Below are positions 21,879-34,366 of a stretch of DNA of 43,086 nucleotides, piece by piece. Position 1 is the stretch's first letter, and the number at the start of each line of letters is the position of its first letter. The translations under genes and the position numbers were made by a program. Below the pieces are notes generated by a model that was not told the origin of the DNA, did not search any database, and saw nothing but the letters and a program-made list of their open reading frames with translations. Source of the DNA: Planctomycetaceae bacterium. GTDB lineage: Bacteria; Planctomycetota; Planctomycetia; Pirellulales; Pirellulaceae. The DNA lies in contig PBOG01000136.1 of NCBI GenBank assembly GCA_002724245.1, positions 1 to 43,086 on the forward strand, in the 5' to 3' direction.

Positions 21879-22073
21879 CAGAGGAGTTCCGTCGGGGTTA
21901 GGGGGAGCAAGTCGCTGTGGTGTCACGGGTTTGCTCTACAGCGCAGGCCTGCGAGCTACCTCGATCTTAATGGGTGGAATCGCCCATCACCAGCCTCCGC
22001 TATACTGAAACACCGAGTGTCACCAGAGCTATCAAGAATAGACCATGTCACACACCACACCTCCGACAACAAT

Positions 22074-24959
22074 ATGATGCAAATTCACACCGTCCGACTG
22101 TCAATCACCCTCTATCTGCTTGTCTGCGCGTCGCTGCGTGCGGACCCAATTCCCCCAATCCAACGCTACCTGCCACCGACCGGCCTCCAGCCACCCAATG
22201 CTCTGAGCACACAATTACAAGAACGGCTGTCACGCCTGCGTATGGAACTCGCTGCAATCGGGTCTCCAGCCAATCCAAATCCTGACGTCGAGATCTATCT
22301 GAAAGCCGTTGACTACGCGCTAAGACACCGCGAATTCTACAAAGAAAAAGACTTTGATTTAGCAGCACGTTTGCTTGACCAGGCAGCCACGAGAATCGCC
22401 TTTCTTCAACAAGGCAAGACTCCCTGGGAAAACCGTCGTGGACTCGTCGTACGTGGCTATCGATCTTCCATTGACGGTTCCGCACAACCTTATGGAATGG
22501 TCATACCGAAAGAACTCGATTTGGGGCAACCAGCTCCTTTATATGTCTGGCTCCACGGGCGCGGAGACAAGACAACCGACTTGCATTTTATTCATACACG
22601 CCAAACACGCCTGGGAAGAATTACCCCGCCCGGTGCAATTGTCCTGCACCCCTTTGGCAGACATTGCGTCGGGTTCAAACACGCCGGAGAAATCGACGTC
22701 CTCGAGGCGATCGAATCCGTTTGCACTCGTTACCAGATCGATACCGGAAACATCGTGTTGATGGGTTTTTCCATGGGTGGTGCAGGCGTTTGGCATATCG
22801 GCGCTCACTATACGGACCGTTTTACTGCGGTTAGCCCTGGTGCCGGCTTTGCAGAAACGGCTCGCTACAACCGTTTTGCCGCGAATGCGTATCCTGTCTG
22901 GTACAGCCAAAAACTATGGACCACATACGACGTACCAAATTACGCGCGTAATTTCATGAACCTGCCGGTCGTCGCCTACAGCGGTGAACACGACAAACAA
23001 ATGCAAGCTGCGCGCGTCATGGAAACTGCGTTCGCAAGCCATGGTCAAAAACTAACCCACTTCATCGGACCGAAGATGGGACACAACTACGATCCACACA
23101 GCCTGTCTGAAATCCTCCGACGTATGCAGCATGCCGTTGAAGCAACAGATCCTGCACCTCGTTCCTCGGTACATTTGCAGACGCGCACACTGCGATACAA
23201 CCGTATGCACTCCGTCCAGATACTCGAAATGAAACGACATTGGGACGACACACGAGTAGACACCGACTGGCAACAGAATTTTCTTACCGTCCAAACCAGG
23301 AACGTTGTCAGCTTAAGACTGGATCTGCGCGCCGCGTGTCGCCGTATTGTTATTGACAACCAAACAATCGCGCTCACGCCAAAGTCTGCTGGCAGCTTTA
23401 TCCGGCTAACAAATCGCGATGGTTCCTGGCAAATTCTCGATCATTGGAAACCTCTTGAAGAACTCACTTCGCAAGACGCTCTTCGAAAACGCCCCGGTTT
23501 ACAGGGCCCGATCGATGACGCATTCCTCACACCATTTATCGTGGTCACACCCTCTCAACGATCAAAACATTCCCAGATTGACCGTTGGGTAAAGTTCGAG
23601 CTCAAGCATCTCTCCGAACGCTGGCGGGCATTGATGCGAGGTGAACTACCGGTGAAGCAAGATATTCACATTACGGCTGAAGACATTCGAACAAAGAACC
23701 TGATTCTCTGGGGTGACGTTCACTCCAATCAAATCATTGCAGATTTGACCAAGACACTTCCGATTGAATGGAACGAAAAAATACTCCGGGTTGGCGAGCA
23801 GGTGTATAGTGCTGCGCACCACATACCCGCGTTCATCTATCCCAACCCCAGAAATCCGGGCAAGTACGTGGTCTTCAACAGTGGGCTGACCTTTCGTGAA
23901 GGCCACGATCGGACCAATTCCTTGCAGAACCCAAAGCTCCCCGACTGGGCGGTCATTGACACATCACAAGCACCAGATGCGCTGATGCCCGGAAAAGTCG
24001 TACGAGCTGACTTTTTCGACGAATCATGGCGACTCATCACAAAACCAGCACAGCCTCATCGACTCAAGGTTCACGTCCCCAGTTCAATCGATGCAACGGA
24101 GCAACCCTGCTATGTCATACTTCCTCCGTCGTTTCGTCCAGGGGCAGCACCAACTCCCCTACTGGTTTCTCTTCACAGTTGGAGCGCTGGCGTCGAGCAG
24201 CGTCGCGAAGACCTGGAACAGCAGGCGGCGGAGCGCGGTTGGATTTGCCTTTTGCCGCATTTTCGCGGCCCGAACAATCACCCGCATGCGTGCGGCTCAG
24301 AACTGGCGCAACAAGATATTCTGGATGCGATCCATTGGGTACAAAGTCGTTATGCAATCGACGCCCGCCGCATCTACCTGACAGGCGTTTCTGGTGGTGG
24401 TCACATGACAATGTTGATGGCAGCACGTCACCCTGACTTGTGGGCAGCCGCAAGTGCGTGGGTGGGAATCAGCGACCTGAAAGCCTGGCATCGCAAGCAT
24501 GCCCGCACCAACTATGGCAGGATGATCAGAAACAGTTGCAGTGGTGTTCCAGGCGACAGTGAATTCGTCGATCGACAATACCGTAACAGGTCACCATTGA
24601 CATTTCTTCACCAGGCCACCGGTGTGCCACTCGACATCGCAGCTGGAGTCCATGATGGCCACCAGGGATCGGTACCAATACGGCACTCCATTGATGCATT
24701 CAACACTATCGCCCGTAGTGGTCAGTATCCCACGGTCAGTGAGGAAGAAATTCAGCAACTCAGTCAGCCCAATGGACGATTGACGAATCCGCAACCGTCG
24801 GATCTCGTCCAGGACCCTGCTTTTGGCCGCCCAATCTATTTACGCCGGCGCGCAGCTCGATCCCGAATTACCATCTTTGAAGGAGGACACGAAGGTATCG
24901 ATACCGCTGCAATCGACTGGCTCGCGCAACACTCGCGCGGCGCGAAGCAACAGAAGTAA
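22074..24959 (+). CDS. Exported fusion of two alpha/beta-hydrolase (prolyl-oligopeptidase-like) domains
   Basis: The 961-residue product has a signal peptide (IHTVRLSITLYLLVCASLRA) and two complete hydrolase heads. Head 1 has the oxyanion motif YVWLHGRGD (157-165), nucleophile Ser233 in GFSMGG, probable Asp307 in GEHD and His337 in KMGHNYD. A linking region (about 360-655) contains a beta-rich part with PRNPGKYVVFNSG, typical of planctomycete esterase-like proteins. Head 2 has LLVSLHSWSAG, Ser773 in GVSGGG, probable Asp861 in VHDGH and His939 in EGGHEG. Both triads look intact, so two hydrolytic activities are expected, on peptides, esters or acetylated sugars. ATGs at 22074 and 22077 are equivalent; the GTG at 22017 would bury the signal peptide. 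Each half resembles a full-length family member, which points to gene fusion. Confidence 0.87.
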   Translation: MMQIHTVRLSITLYLLVCASLRADPIPPIQRYLPPTGLQPPNALSTQLQERLSRLRMELAAIGSPANPNPDVEIYLKAVDYALRHREFYKEKDFDLAARLLDQAATRIAFLQQGKTPWENRRGLVVRGYRSSIDGSAQPYGMVIPKELDLGQPAPLYVWLHGRGDKTTDLHFIHTRQTRLGRITPPGAIVLHPFGRHCVGFKHAGEIDVLEAIESVCTRYQIDTGNIVLMGFSMGGAGVWHIGAHYTDRFTAVSPGAGFAETARYNRFAANAYPVWYSQKLWTTYDVPNYARNFMNLPVVAYSGEHDKQMQAARVMETAFASHGQKLTHFIGPKMGHNYDPHSLSEILRRMQHAVEATDPAPRSSVHLQTRTLRYNRMHSVQILEMKRHWDDTRVDTDWQQNFLTVQTRNVVSLRLDLRAACRRIVIDNQTIALTPKSAGSFIRLTNRDGSWQILDHWKPLEELTSQDALRKRPGLQGPIDDAFLTPFIVVTPSQRSKHSQIDRWVKFELKHLSERWRALMRGELPVKQDIHITAEDIRTKNLILWGDVHSNQIIADLTKTLPIEWNEKILRVGEQVYSAAHHIPAFIYPNPRNPGKYVVFNSGLTFREGHDRTNSLQNPKLPDWAVIDTSQAPDALMPGKVVRADFFDESWRLITKPAQPHRLKVHVPSSIDATEQPCYVILPPSFRPGAAPTPLLVSLHSWSAGVEQRREDLEQQAAERGWICLLPHFRGPNNHPHACGSELAQQDILDAIHWVQSRYAIDARRIYLTGVSGGGHMTMLMAARHPDLWAAASAWVGISDLKAWHRKHARTNYGRMIRNSCSGVPGDSEFVDRQYRNRSPLTFLHQATGVPLDIAAGVHDGHQGSVPIRHSIDAFNTIARSGQYPTVSEEEIQQLSQPNGRLTNPQPSDLVQDPAFGRPIYLRRRAARSRITIFEGGHEGIDTAAIDWLAQHSRGAKQQK

Positions 24960-32053: not shown

Positions 32054-34366
32054 TCAAGGCGTCTCTACTGGTTCCTGATGATTGCTGGACGGGAGCAAAT
32101 ACCTGGTTGCCAACCCAAGCATACCAAGACCAACAAGCACCGATGCCAACGACACAACAAGCCACGCCAACGGCAAATGAGCTCTTTCATCATGGCCGAA
32201 ACCCAGGTCTTCCAGCTCACTCTGGTAATAGGCAATCAAGAGAACAGAACCATTGTGACAGGTGTGAATCAGGATTCCAGGCAAGATGCTTCGCGTACGC
32301 CAGCAGACCCAGCCCAACACGATACCCAAGAAAGTACTCGGCAAGAATCGCTCCAGCGCCAGGACACTTGTGACAACATGAAAAGCTCCGAACAAGGTCG
32401 CCGAAAACAATATCGCTCGGGCCGGCGAAGTCACGCGAGACAGCGAACTGAACAAGTAGCCACGAAATAGCCACTCTTCACAAATTGCCGGACAAACCGC
32501 CAACGCAACAATCAATAAGGCCACATTCACTTCCCGCCATGACCGCAACTGCTGGTTCACGGTTTCGATCAAGTCAGGACCAAATGACAACAATCCCAGC
32601 CATTGATTCAATAAACAAATTTCGTAGGCCAATGGCCAGAGCGCAAGCCCCAGTAACAGACCGGCAGGAAACGCAATCCAAGGAGGTCGCCGGAGTCGAA
32701 AAGTCTCTGCCAAGTTGAGCCGCTGTAAACGTGCCACTACCCAGGGCAAAAAACCAAACACGAGTAACGTCGTCGCGCCGGCCATCAACAATTGATAGTA
32801 AACGCCCGACCTTGCGCCCCAACGCCCCAGTAAGTTGGCGCCGACAAAGTACACCGGAAACACCAAGGCAACACAAAATAACGCGGCAGACACACTCGGA
32901 ACTTCTGGGCGGCGTTTGGTTGGACGCAACAACTCAAGCCAGGTTACCTGGCTTCCGTAAAGCACGGCATCGGTACCAAAAATCCTCCCTGCCAGACCGA
33001 GCGCCGCCATAGCGTAGAACAGTGTCGAAAGAATCGTCGCTGTCGCGAGTGCAGGATTCACGGCGTCCTGAAACAAGTCCCTGGCCAACAACACTACATT
33101 GATGACTGGAACAATCGCCAAGAGCTGGTTGAATACCAACCCTGGAGTCAATGCCAGTACTCCCGGAAACAACGCCAACAAAATGACAGGAATCAAATAC
33201 GATTGCGCTTCTTTAAAACTGCGAGCAAAACTGGTTAGTGCCAACAGAATCGCGGCAAAGAACGACGCGAACAACACCATTAAACCAAGAGTCTTTGCCA
33301 ACACGCTCAGACTCATGCCGCCGGGCCCGAACACCATTTGCTCTACGCCTGTCACTACGATCGTCAACGCCATCGCGCCCAAATTGACGACAGCCGTCAA
33401 GAGTGACACCGTAACCACCGCAACGTATTTCCCTGCCAATAAGCCAAGACGTGGCACGGGAGCAGCCATCAATGTTTCCAGGGTGCCGCGTTCACGTTCG
33501 CCTGCAGTCAGGTCAATAGCTGGGTAAACAGCACCCGTGACCGTCATCAAAATGAGAATTAGTGGAATCAGTGTGCTCGCAAATGAAACCGGTTTCGCGT
33601 TGACCAGTTCATGTTCCATTGCCACCGGTAATTCAAGCGGCCAATTCAATCTCAACATCGCAGGCAAGCGACGCTCGACAAAATCCTGATTCAGCAGATC
33701 CAACCGCTCCTCGCAATAACGCACTGCAGCTTCACTGATTGGAGAAGCAGACCGGTAAACGTAAACTCCAGTTAGTGGACGAGGCCGATTAGGCCGGTCC
33801 GACCGGGAAACGTTTGTCAGACGCAATCCCAGGTCAATCACGCCCTCGCGAACAGCTTCATCCAAATAGCCCGGACGAATCACAACGATGCTCACGCGAC
33901 GAACTTCAGGAATGGCCGGGTTTTGCAGTAGTTGATCTGACAACTCTGGGGACTTTTCGACCGCTGGCTCCGGAAGGCTTTTTGCATCCTCGCCAAGCTC
34001 AGTATCAGCCAGATCCGCTCCACCAGCCCCTTGTACGGCAGCCAGCTTCTCATCTCGCTGCAACTTGAATATTCGGTTCCCTTCAGACAAGAACGACTGC
34101 AAAGAAGTTCTGGCTTCCTCGGACTCTACACCGATCTGCAATTCAACACGACCCAACGGTTCAAACGCGGTCATGATGAACTTCTGGAAGGCAAGCCCTA
34201 GAAGCGAATAAAGCAAGGGGGGCATCAGGAGCAACGTCACGATCGTCCGACGGTCTCGCAAGGTCTCACGCAACTCCTTGAGACACAATCGAAGCAAACG
34301 CGTCGGCATTCCGCGCACAGATCGTCTGCGTTGCCGAGATTCGAAGCCTGCTGGATTGTCGACCAT
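32054..34366 (-). CDS. ABC-2 (NatB-like) permease fused to a CPBP intramembrane protease
   Basis: The 770-residue product joins two membrane proteins. Residues 1-540 are an ABC-2 exporter permease of NatB type: RLLRLCLKELRETLRDRRT, a large extracytoplasmic domain of about 200 residues, and the membrane half with LTAGERERGTLETLMAAPV. The last 200 residues are a CPBP/Abi-type protease with its motifs: EEWLFRG (Glu630, Glu631), FGAFH (His663) and HTCHN (His701, Asn705). All metal and catalytic positions are present, so proteolysis is likely. The ATPase gene lies 18 bp upstream. Such fusions are known among planctomycetes and relatives; the transported substrate and protease target are not. An ATG at 34309 is an alternative start and fits the usual permease N-terminus better. 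Confidence 0.9.
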   Translation of the reverse strand: MVDNPAGFESRQRRRSVRGMPTRLLRLCLKELRETLRDRRTIVTLLLMPPLLYSLLGLAFQKFIMTAFEPLGRVELQIGVESEEARTSLQSFLSEGNRIFKLQRDEKLAAVQGAGGADLADTELGEDAKSLPEPAVEKSPELSDQLLQNPAIPEVRRVSIVVIRPGYLDEAVREGVIDLGLRLTNVSRSDRPNRPRPLTGVYVYRSASPISEAAVRYCEERLDLLNQDFVERRLPAMLRLNWPLELPVAMEHELVNAKPVSFASTLIPLILILMTVTGAVYPAIDLTAGERERGTLETLMAAPVPRLGLLAGKYVAVVTVSLLTAVVNLGAMALTIVVTGVEQMVFGPGGMSLSVLAKTLGLMVLFASFFAAILLALTSFARSFKEAQSYLIPVILLALFPGVLALTPGLVFNQLLAIVPVINVVLLARDLFQDAVNPALATATILSTLFYAMAALGLAGRIFGTDAVLYGSQVTWLELLRPTKRRPEVPSVSAALFCVALVFPVYFVGANLLGRWGARSGVYYQLLMAGATTLLVFGFLPWVVARLQRLNLAETFRLRRPPWIAFPAGLLLGLALWPLAYEICLLNQWLGLLSFGPDLIETVNQQLRSWREVNVALLIVALAVCPAICEEWLFRGYLFSSLSRVTSPARAILFSATLFGAFHVVTSVLALERFLPSTFLGIVLGWVCWRTRSILPGILIHTCHNGSVLLIAYYQSELEDLGFGHDERAHLPLAWLVVSLASVLVGLGMLGLATRYLLPSSNHQEPVETP

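Follow-up and report, generated by a model that had tools for sequence, protein, structure and literature searches.

A two-headed alpha/beta-hydrolase in a marine planctomycete genus and the sulfatase fusions of its relatives

Does a single frame carrying two sets of alpha/beta-hydrolase motifs encode one two-headed enzyme, and if so, on what would such an enzyme act? The question is raised by a gene in a 43,086-nucleotide stretch of planctomycete DNA, referred to here as the window. The reading frame is open over 22017-24959 and encodes 961 aa when counted from the ATG at 22074; a promoter scan found nothing. The gene and its segments are as follows.

22074-24959, + strand: whole fusion gene, 961 aa and stop; collinear in G001 and G002
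22074-22142, + strand: apparent signal peptide, residues 1-23; judged by eye, helix 2-20 in the unit 1 model
22143-22433, + strand: helical N-terminal region, residues 24-120; model helices 42-62, 70-84, 93-112 and 117-120
22434-23147, + strand: first alpha/beta-hydrolase head, residues 121-358 (Ser233, Asp307, His337); Pfam, model, structural and profile matches, conservation
23166-23438, + strand: beta-rich module, residues 365-455; nine model strands, no Pfam match
23511-24029, + strand: mixed alpha/beta lobe, residues 480-652; integral to the first unit, highly conserved and without a Pfam match
24030-24056, + strand: junction, residues 653-661; the end of the first unit abuts the start of the second without a long linker
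24057-24947, + strand: second alpha/beta-hydrolase head, residues 662-958 (Ser773, Asp861, His939); Pfam, model, structural and profile matches, conservation

The first unit comprises the signal peptide, the helical region, the head, the beta-rich module and the mixed lobe, and reaches to about residue 656. The junction was placed from relatives, whose first units stop at about 653-658 and whose second units start at about 660-665 in query numbering, and from the alignment of three fusions. Alpha/beta-hydrolase families of Pfam matched both parts. The top match was Peptidase_S9 (80.4 bits over two stretches, above its cut-off), and Esterase (43.6 bits, cut-off 22) and BD-FAE (42.8 bits) likewise exceeded theirs; a CE1-type carbohydrate esterase is thereby one candidate among several. 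No Pfam family covers residues 365-658.

Each head has its catalytic motifs in order: HGRG at 161-164, GFSMGG with Ser233, Asp307 and His337 in the first, and LHSWS with His701, GVSGGG with Ser773, Asp861 and His939 in the second. The triad residues are invariant in all 82 aligned rows of the first unit and all 44 of the second. On the oxyanion side of head 1, His161 is kept in 81 of 82 rows and the adjacent Arg163 in all 82. Arg196, also near the active-site motifs, is invariant, and Lys202 is found in all rows but one; our guess is that these three basic residues would suit an anionic sugar. The frame holds two complete catalytic triads, as do two-headed esterases of the DmCE1B type. Together with the apparent signal peptide, this supports the sequence-only reading of the gene as encoding one exported polypeptide with two complete, ordered triads.

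Predicted models placed the triad residues of both heads where the fold requires them. When unit 1 was folded alone with a 65-row alignment, the mean pLDDT was 94.6 and the pTM 0.93; Ser233 lies between strand 222-231 and helix 234-245, Asp307 follows strand 299-304 and His337 follows strand 328-332. The full-length model was confident only in the C head, where most 10-residue blocks exceed pLDDT 90 and Ser773, Asp861 and His939 follow strands 762-772, 853-858 and 930-935. Its N half was weak (mean pLDDT 72.7, pTM 0.45) because the alignment put N-only rows on the C head.

The best structural matches were S9 peptidases for both unit 1 (Z 20.8, 2.8 A, 232 residues) and the C head (Z 26.7, 3.0 A, 246 residues). 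Foldseek with the full-length model returned nothing beyond the C-head structural matches, and the structural searches barely reach residues 365-658. Sequence profiles against the PDB gave LC-Est1C as the best solved relative of both heads; further relatives included peptidases, a PHB depolymerase, an acetylxylan esterase and several esterases, feruloyl esterases among them. Both heads look like members of the feruloyl-esterase/PHB-depolymerase/S9 group of esterases.

The heads are homologous to each other. BLASTP aligned them at 32% identity over 147 aa (E 5e-10), profile comparison gave a probability of 98.6%, and they have in common an SSID..QP entry strand as well as their best PDB relative. 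The protein is therefore built from two members of one broad group that diverged long ago. A recent tandem duplication was considered and rejected, since in trees the nearest out-of-genus relatives of each head are separate genes. The earlier description of the protein as two kinds of hydrolase rather than a duplication was correct in that no recent duplication took place, but the kinds are related.

Full-length matches were found, among those listed for 60 genomes, only in G000, G001 and G002, which belong to the window's genus; all three sampled genomes of this genus have the fusion. Two of the three are marine Planctomycetaceae MAGs (SP141, NAT155). Both collinear copies are diverged from the window fusion (83% identity in G002, 71% in G001), and the copy in G001, cut off by the end of its contig, is missing about 12 residues at its start. 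For G000 against G002, dN/dS was 0.108 in the N head, 0.141 in the module and lobe and 0.106 in the C head; in other genome pairs silent sites are too diverged for firm values in most regions. Both heads are under purifying selection. An assembly artefact, which the sequence-only reading had named as a possible refutation, can be rejected: the fusion is present again in G001 and G002, where its neighbours are conserved as well, and it is under purifying selection.

In trees the three fused first units form one group nested within the first units of the family (support 100), and the fused second units likewise cluster with one another among its second units (support 94/81). The simplest history would be that two native genes fused once, following a rearrangement, in the ancestor of the genus. 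That the gene unites two families kept as separate genes elsewhere is supported by the genomes of relatives.

Among the matches listed, 12 of 57 out-of-genus genomes have a second unit together with a close first unit, and in none are the two neighbours: in G004 they lie 78 kb apart on a single contig, in G021 they are separated by 568 kb of one chromosome, and in the remaining ten genomes they are on different contigs. The stretches of about 7 to 20 kb around 18 first units contained no second unit, and those around 20 second units no first unit; weak cross-hits there fall within the unit genes themselves. The window's own subfamily gave no sign that the halves were once neighbours or belonged to an operon from which a stop codon was lost. 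Missing around the separate units of relatives are also the close neighbours of the window gene, namely an S41 peptidase, a DsrE-like protein, a hypothetical protein and three others, presumably two ClpP-like and one trigger-factor-like.

Separate halves that are neighbours, which the sequence-only reading had envisaged, occur in g84, and there the second unit is adjoined, convergently, by a distant first-unit paralogue. This arrangement is present in 8 of 13 genomes sampled at their second-unit locus, and two more such genomes lie outside the sample. All eight loci in which the units adjoin also contain a sulfatase, whereas none of the four tested loci lacking the first unit does; in three loci a CsrA-like gene lies between the units. 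The genes between and around them encode a regulator, a dehydrogenase, an asparagine synthase and a kinase, which does not make a polysaccharide locus; because the loci share one genus and common descent, they count as one observation and not eight.

The first unit or a paralogue is present in at least 166 of 241 genomes of the window's family and the second unit in at least 84 of 241; in a sample of the phylum the numbers are at least 55 and at least 44 of 392. The units co-occur to a modest extent. Among the matches listed, a first-unit relative accompanies the second unit in 75 of 84 genomes, against 91 of 157 genomes without a second unit; counted by genus this is 28/33 against 20/35 (p about 0.012, uncorrected for descent and genome size). 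For the close first-unit subfamily the corresponding values, again among the matches listed, are 39/84 against 27/157 genomes and 19/33 against 9/35 genera (p about 0.007, likewise uncorrected).

To hold both a first and a second unit, an open frame must reach about 930 aa. Of the second-unit matches listed for the family, only those in G000, G001, G002 and G096 are as long as this, and the partner in G096 is an SGNH hydrolase. Among those listed for the phylum, only G000, G707 and G803 have frames long enough; the partner in G707 is a sulfatase, and G803 has no recognisable first unit. Between 2 and 14 candidates per genome were scored in the searches, which makes the absences provisional. 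Other long frames were discarded: L146 to L155, L157, L159 and L160 are extended by upstream reading only, without a recognised partner, and L145 is a first unit of ordinary length. In L135 a first-unit relative runs over two overlapping frames, possibly through an assembly frameshift.

Relatives of each unit are joined to other enzymes, as listed below.

L049:9011-12331 and L045:16522-19791, - strand: SGSH_C-type sulfatase then first unit (g3, g6); Pfam scan
L099:1679-5071, + strand: SGSH_C-type sulfatase then first unit (g3, g6); Pfam scan
L140 to L144, e.g. L143:2138-5641, + strand: Sulfatase_C-type sulfatase then first unit (f8); two of two scanned
L161:7476-10211, + strand: second unit then sulfatase with CAPAR motif, HEAT repeats at the end (G707, 912 aa)
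L079:1036-3783, + strand: SGNH hydrolase then second unit (G096); multi-headed hydrolase
L072:8503-10701, + strand: glucuronyl-esterase-like hydrolase then second unit (G048); multi-headed hydrolase
L080:3072-5030 (- strand), L081, L083 and L084: part of about 330 residues then second unit (g24); two of five scanned

In g3 and g6 we found 11 first-unit frames of 1,094-1,142 aa, and in all three that were scanned the first unit is preceded by a PF00884 sulfatase with SGSH_C at its end; the closest PDB match of this part was an S1_8A sulfatase. Family f8 has five first-unit frames of 1,190-1,307 aa with a different, Sulfatase_C-type sulfatase in front (2/2 scanned). The two kinds of fusion form separate clades in the 82-row tree (short-search support), so the first unit was joined to a sulfatase at least twice, or once with later replacement. 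A propeller-like part precedes the first unit in G147, and a PQQ-type propeller lies behind the second unit in G587. The front part in g24 has no Pfam or PDB sequence match and by eye looks like a glycosidase-like propeller.

There are thus nine architectures in all, the window fusion counted once, and three of them contain sulfatases. With sulfatases estimated at about one to two per 100 genes, this exceeds expectation, in what is a small and non-random sample. PF00884 matches numbered at least 51 in G000, at least 94 in G004 and at least 69 in G707, and ranged from at least 31 to at least 94 over nine genomes of the window's family and others, two partial f8 genomes aside. Distant first-unit relatives (25-30% identity) in L171 to L178 have about 300-400 other residues in front and some of them 150-250 behind; these are other architectures, and they gave no match to the sulfatase seeds. 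In the literature, subscription journals and supplements aside, we found no report of the present fusion or of sulfatases joined to either unit. Prolyl-oligopeptidase homologues are described in one report as having many domain architectures, one of them with a formylglycine-generating-sulfatase domain (PMC4522959), and these may overlap with the sulfatase fusions described here.

Around the window gene itself no recognisable polysaccharide-utilisation genes were found by Pfam among eight neighbours, which matched ZIP, S41, DsrE, oxidoreductase, UvrA-like and ABC-2/Rce1-like families, two having no match. A 770-aa frame at window positions 32054-34366 (- strand) matches both an ABC-2 membrane permease and an Rce1-like protease family. 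Planctomycetes often lack polysaccharide-utilisation loci. Sulfatases were not enriched near stand-alone copies: they occurred in 2 of the 16 regions around first units and in 3 of the 20 around second units.

What, then, would the two-headed protein do? The reading that we favour, and to which we give about an even chance, is that of a secreted esterase whose two heads strip ester groups off one sulfated polysaccharide and were joined in the ancestor of a marine planctomycete genus. Two native genes would have been fused head to tail, the second losing its signal peptide. Each head would act as a serine esterase with a nucleophilic serine, an Asp-His relay and an oxyanion hole. Both would work on one sulfated polysaccharide with acyl or uronate esters and remove different ester groups, or groups at different positions. 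Separate sulfatases and glycoside hydrolases or lyases would do the remainder, including cutting of the backbone, and the joined heads would bring two decoration-removing activities to one chain. The shared target is suggested by the partners found elsewhere (sulfatases, SGNH and glucuronyl-esterase-like hydrolases). A two-step breakdown by deacetylation followed by cleavage, as the sequence-only reading proposed, gained no support: both heads appear esterase-like, and nothing in the present results marks either as backbone-cleaving.

Several observations speak against parts of this. The propellers in G147 and G587 and the g24 module do not point to sulfated sugars. The reading is also weakened by stand-alone copies without sulfatase enrichment, by the lack of recognisable polysaccharide genes beside the window gene and by co-occurrence that is only modest. 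The halves could instead be separate enzymes that came to share a chain by a chance rearrangement, one that is tolerated and brings no coupling of the heads. They are unlinked in relatives and often apart, among the matches listed (9 of 84 second-unit genomes lack a first-unit relative, and 91 of the 157 other genomes have one), and the gene order of the window resembles the surroundings of neither partner. We nevertheless consider such an accident unlikely, since the fusion was kept in three species down to 71% identity with both heads conserved, and the units were elsewhere repeatedly joined to the same sort of enzymes.

The esterase reading is itself challenged by the top Pfam hit and the highest structural Z scores, all to S9 peptidases. 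The heads, chiefly the second, might then be S9-type peptidases that trim glycoproteins or peptides. The catalytic alpha/beta-hydrolase domain of S9 prolyl oligopeptidases is present, but the beta-propeller that would stand before or around it is absent from the unit 1 model, which shows a helical region, the head, a nine-strand module and a mixed lobe; neither head is preceded by a propeller in the model. Sequence-based PDB matches, moreover, rank LC-Est1C and esterases first, and a common fold is no proof of function; of the alternatives we rate peptidases as the least probable. Slightly less improbable, though still doubtful, is that one or both heads are PHA-depolymerase-like or general carboxylesterases acting on polyesters or lipids outside the cell. 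The best NCBIfam model was that of extracellular scl-PHA depolymerase type 1 (NF050058), and a PHB depolymerase is among the PDB relatives; however, the 96.4 bits for the whole protein fall below that model's cut-off of 150, neither NCBIfam cut-off (150 and 107.85 bits) was reached, and most of the partners in fusions are sulfatases or carbohydrate-esterase-like enzymes.

A secreted two-headed esterase of the kind that we favour has counterparts. DmCE1B of Dysgonomonas mossii has two CE1 heads, 35% identical, with a CBM48 bridge, and its C-terminal head is little active on model substrates (PMC8040265). Like it, the present protein is apparently secreted and has two homologous, diverged heads (32% over 147 aa here) with a beta-rich module between them, and the authors of that report also conclude that there was no recent duplication. 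DmCE1B differs in belonging to Bacteroidota and to a xylan locus and in its CBM48 bridge; the planctomycete first unit has its own beta and alpha/beta part of about 300 residues without a Pfam match, the gene stands alone, and its relatives are joined to sulfatases. Acetyl-feruloyl esterases of the CE6-CE1 type from Bacteroides ovatus and Flavobacterium johnsoniae likewise carry two esterase heads on one secreted chain, and for one of them intramolecular synergy was demonstrated; as CE6 is an SGNH hydrolase, their heads are of unlike folds, and their substrates are xylans (PMC7110780). Fll4 of Flavimarina is similarly marine, with several esterase heads per chain, one of them lacking a known substrate, but it has three heads (one CE6, two CE1) and belongs to a xylan locus of Bacteroidota (PMC12247016). 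The fusions in relatives are comparable to P36 of Formosa, in which a sulfatase and the next enzyme of marine polysaccharide breakdown form one protein; there, an S1_25 sulfatase of the ulvan pathway is joined to a GH78 rhamnosidase and not to an alpha/beta-hydrolase (PMC8511951). Pirellulales and Planctomycetales are reported to abound in carbohydrate esterases and sulfatases (PMC11131199). Bacteroidota thus already provide the two-headed design; the novelty lies in the pair of families, in the phylum and in the connection with sulfatases.

The joining of relatives to sulfatases is a more interesting result than the fusion itself. All three pairs occur: first with second unit in the window's genus, first unit with sulfatase in g3/g6 and, separately, in f8, and second unit with sulfatase in G707; in g84 all three share a locus. 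It is possible, although we lean against it at present, that these two undescribed hydrolase families of planctomycetes work together with S1 sulfatases as a trio on a polysaccharide that is both sulfated and acylated, in which the two-headed protein would remove acyl groups and so open the polymer to the sulfatases. Sulfatase and hydrolase genes of planctomycetes are scattered and not clustered, so working partners are hard to find, and natural fusions indicate which of these enzymes work together. If the trio is real, two uncharacterised, widespread families would be tied to the breakdown of sulfated glycans, with enzyme pairs that can be tested directly.
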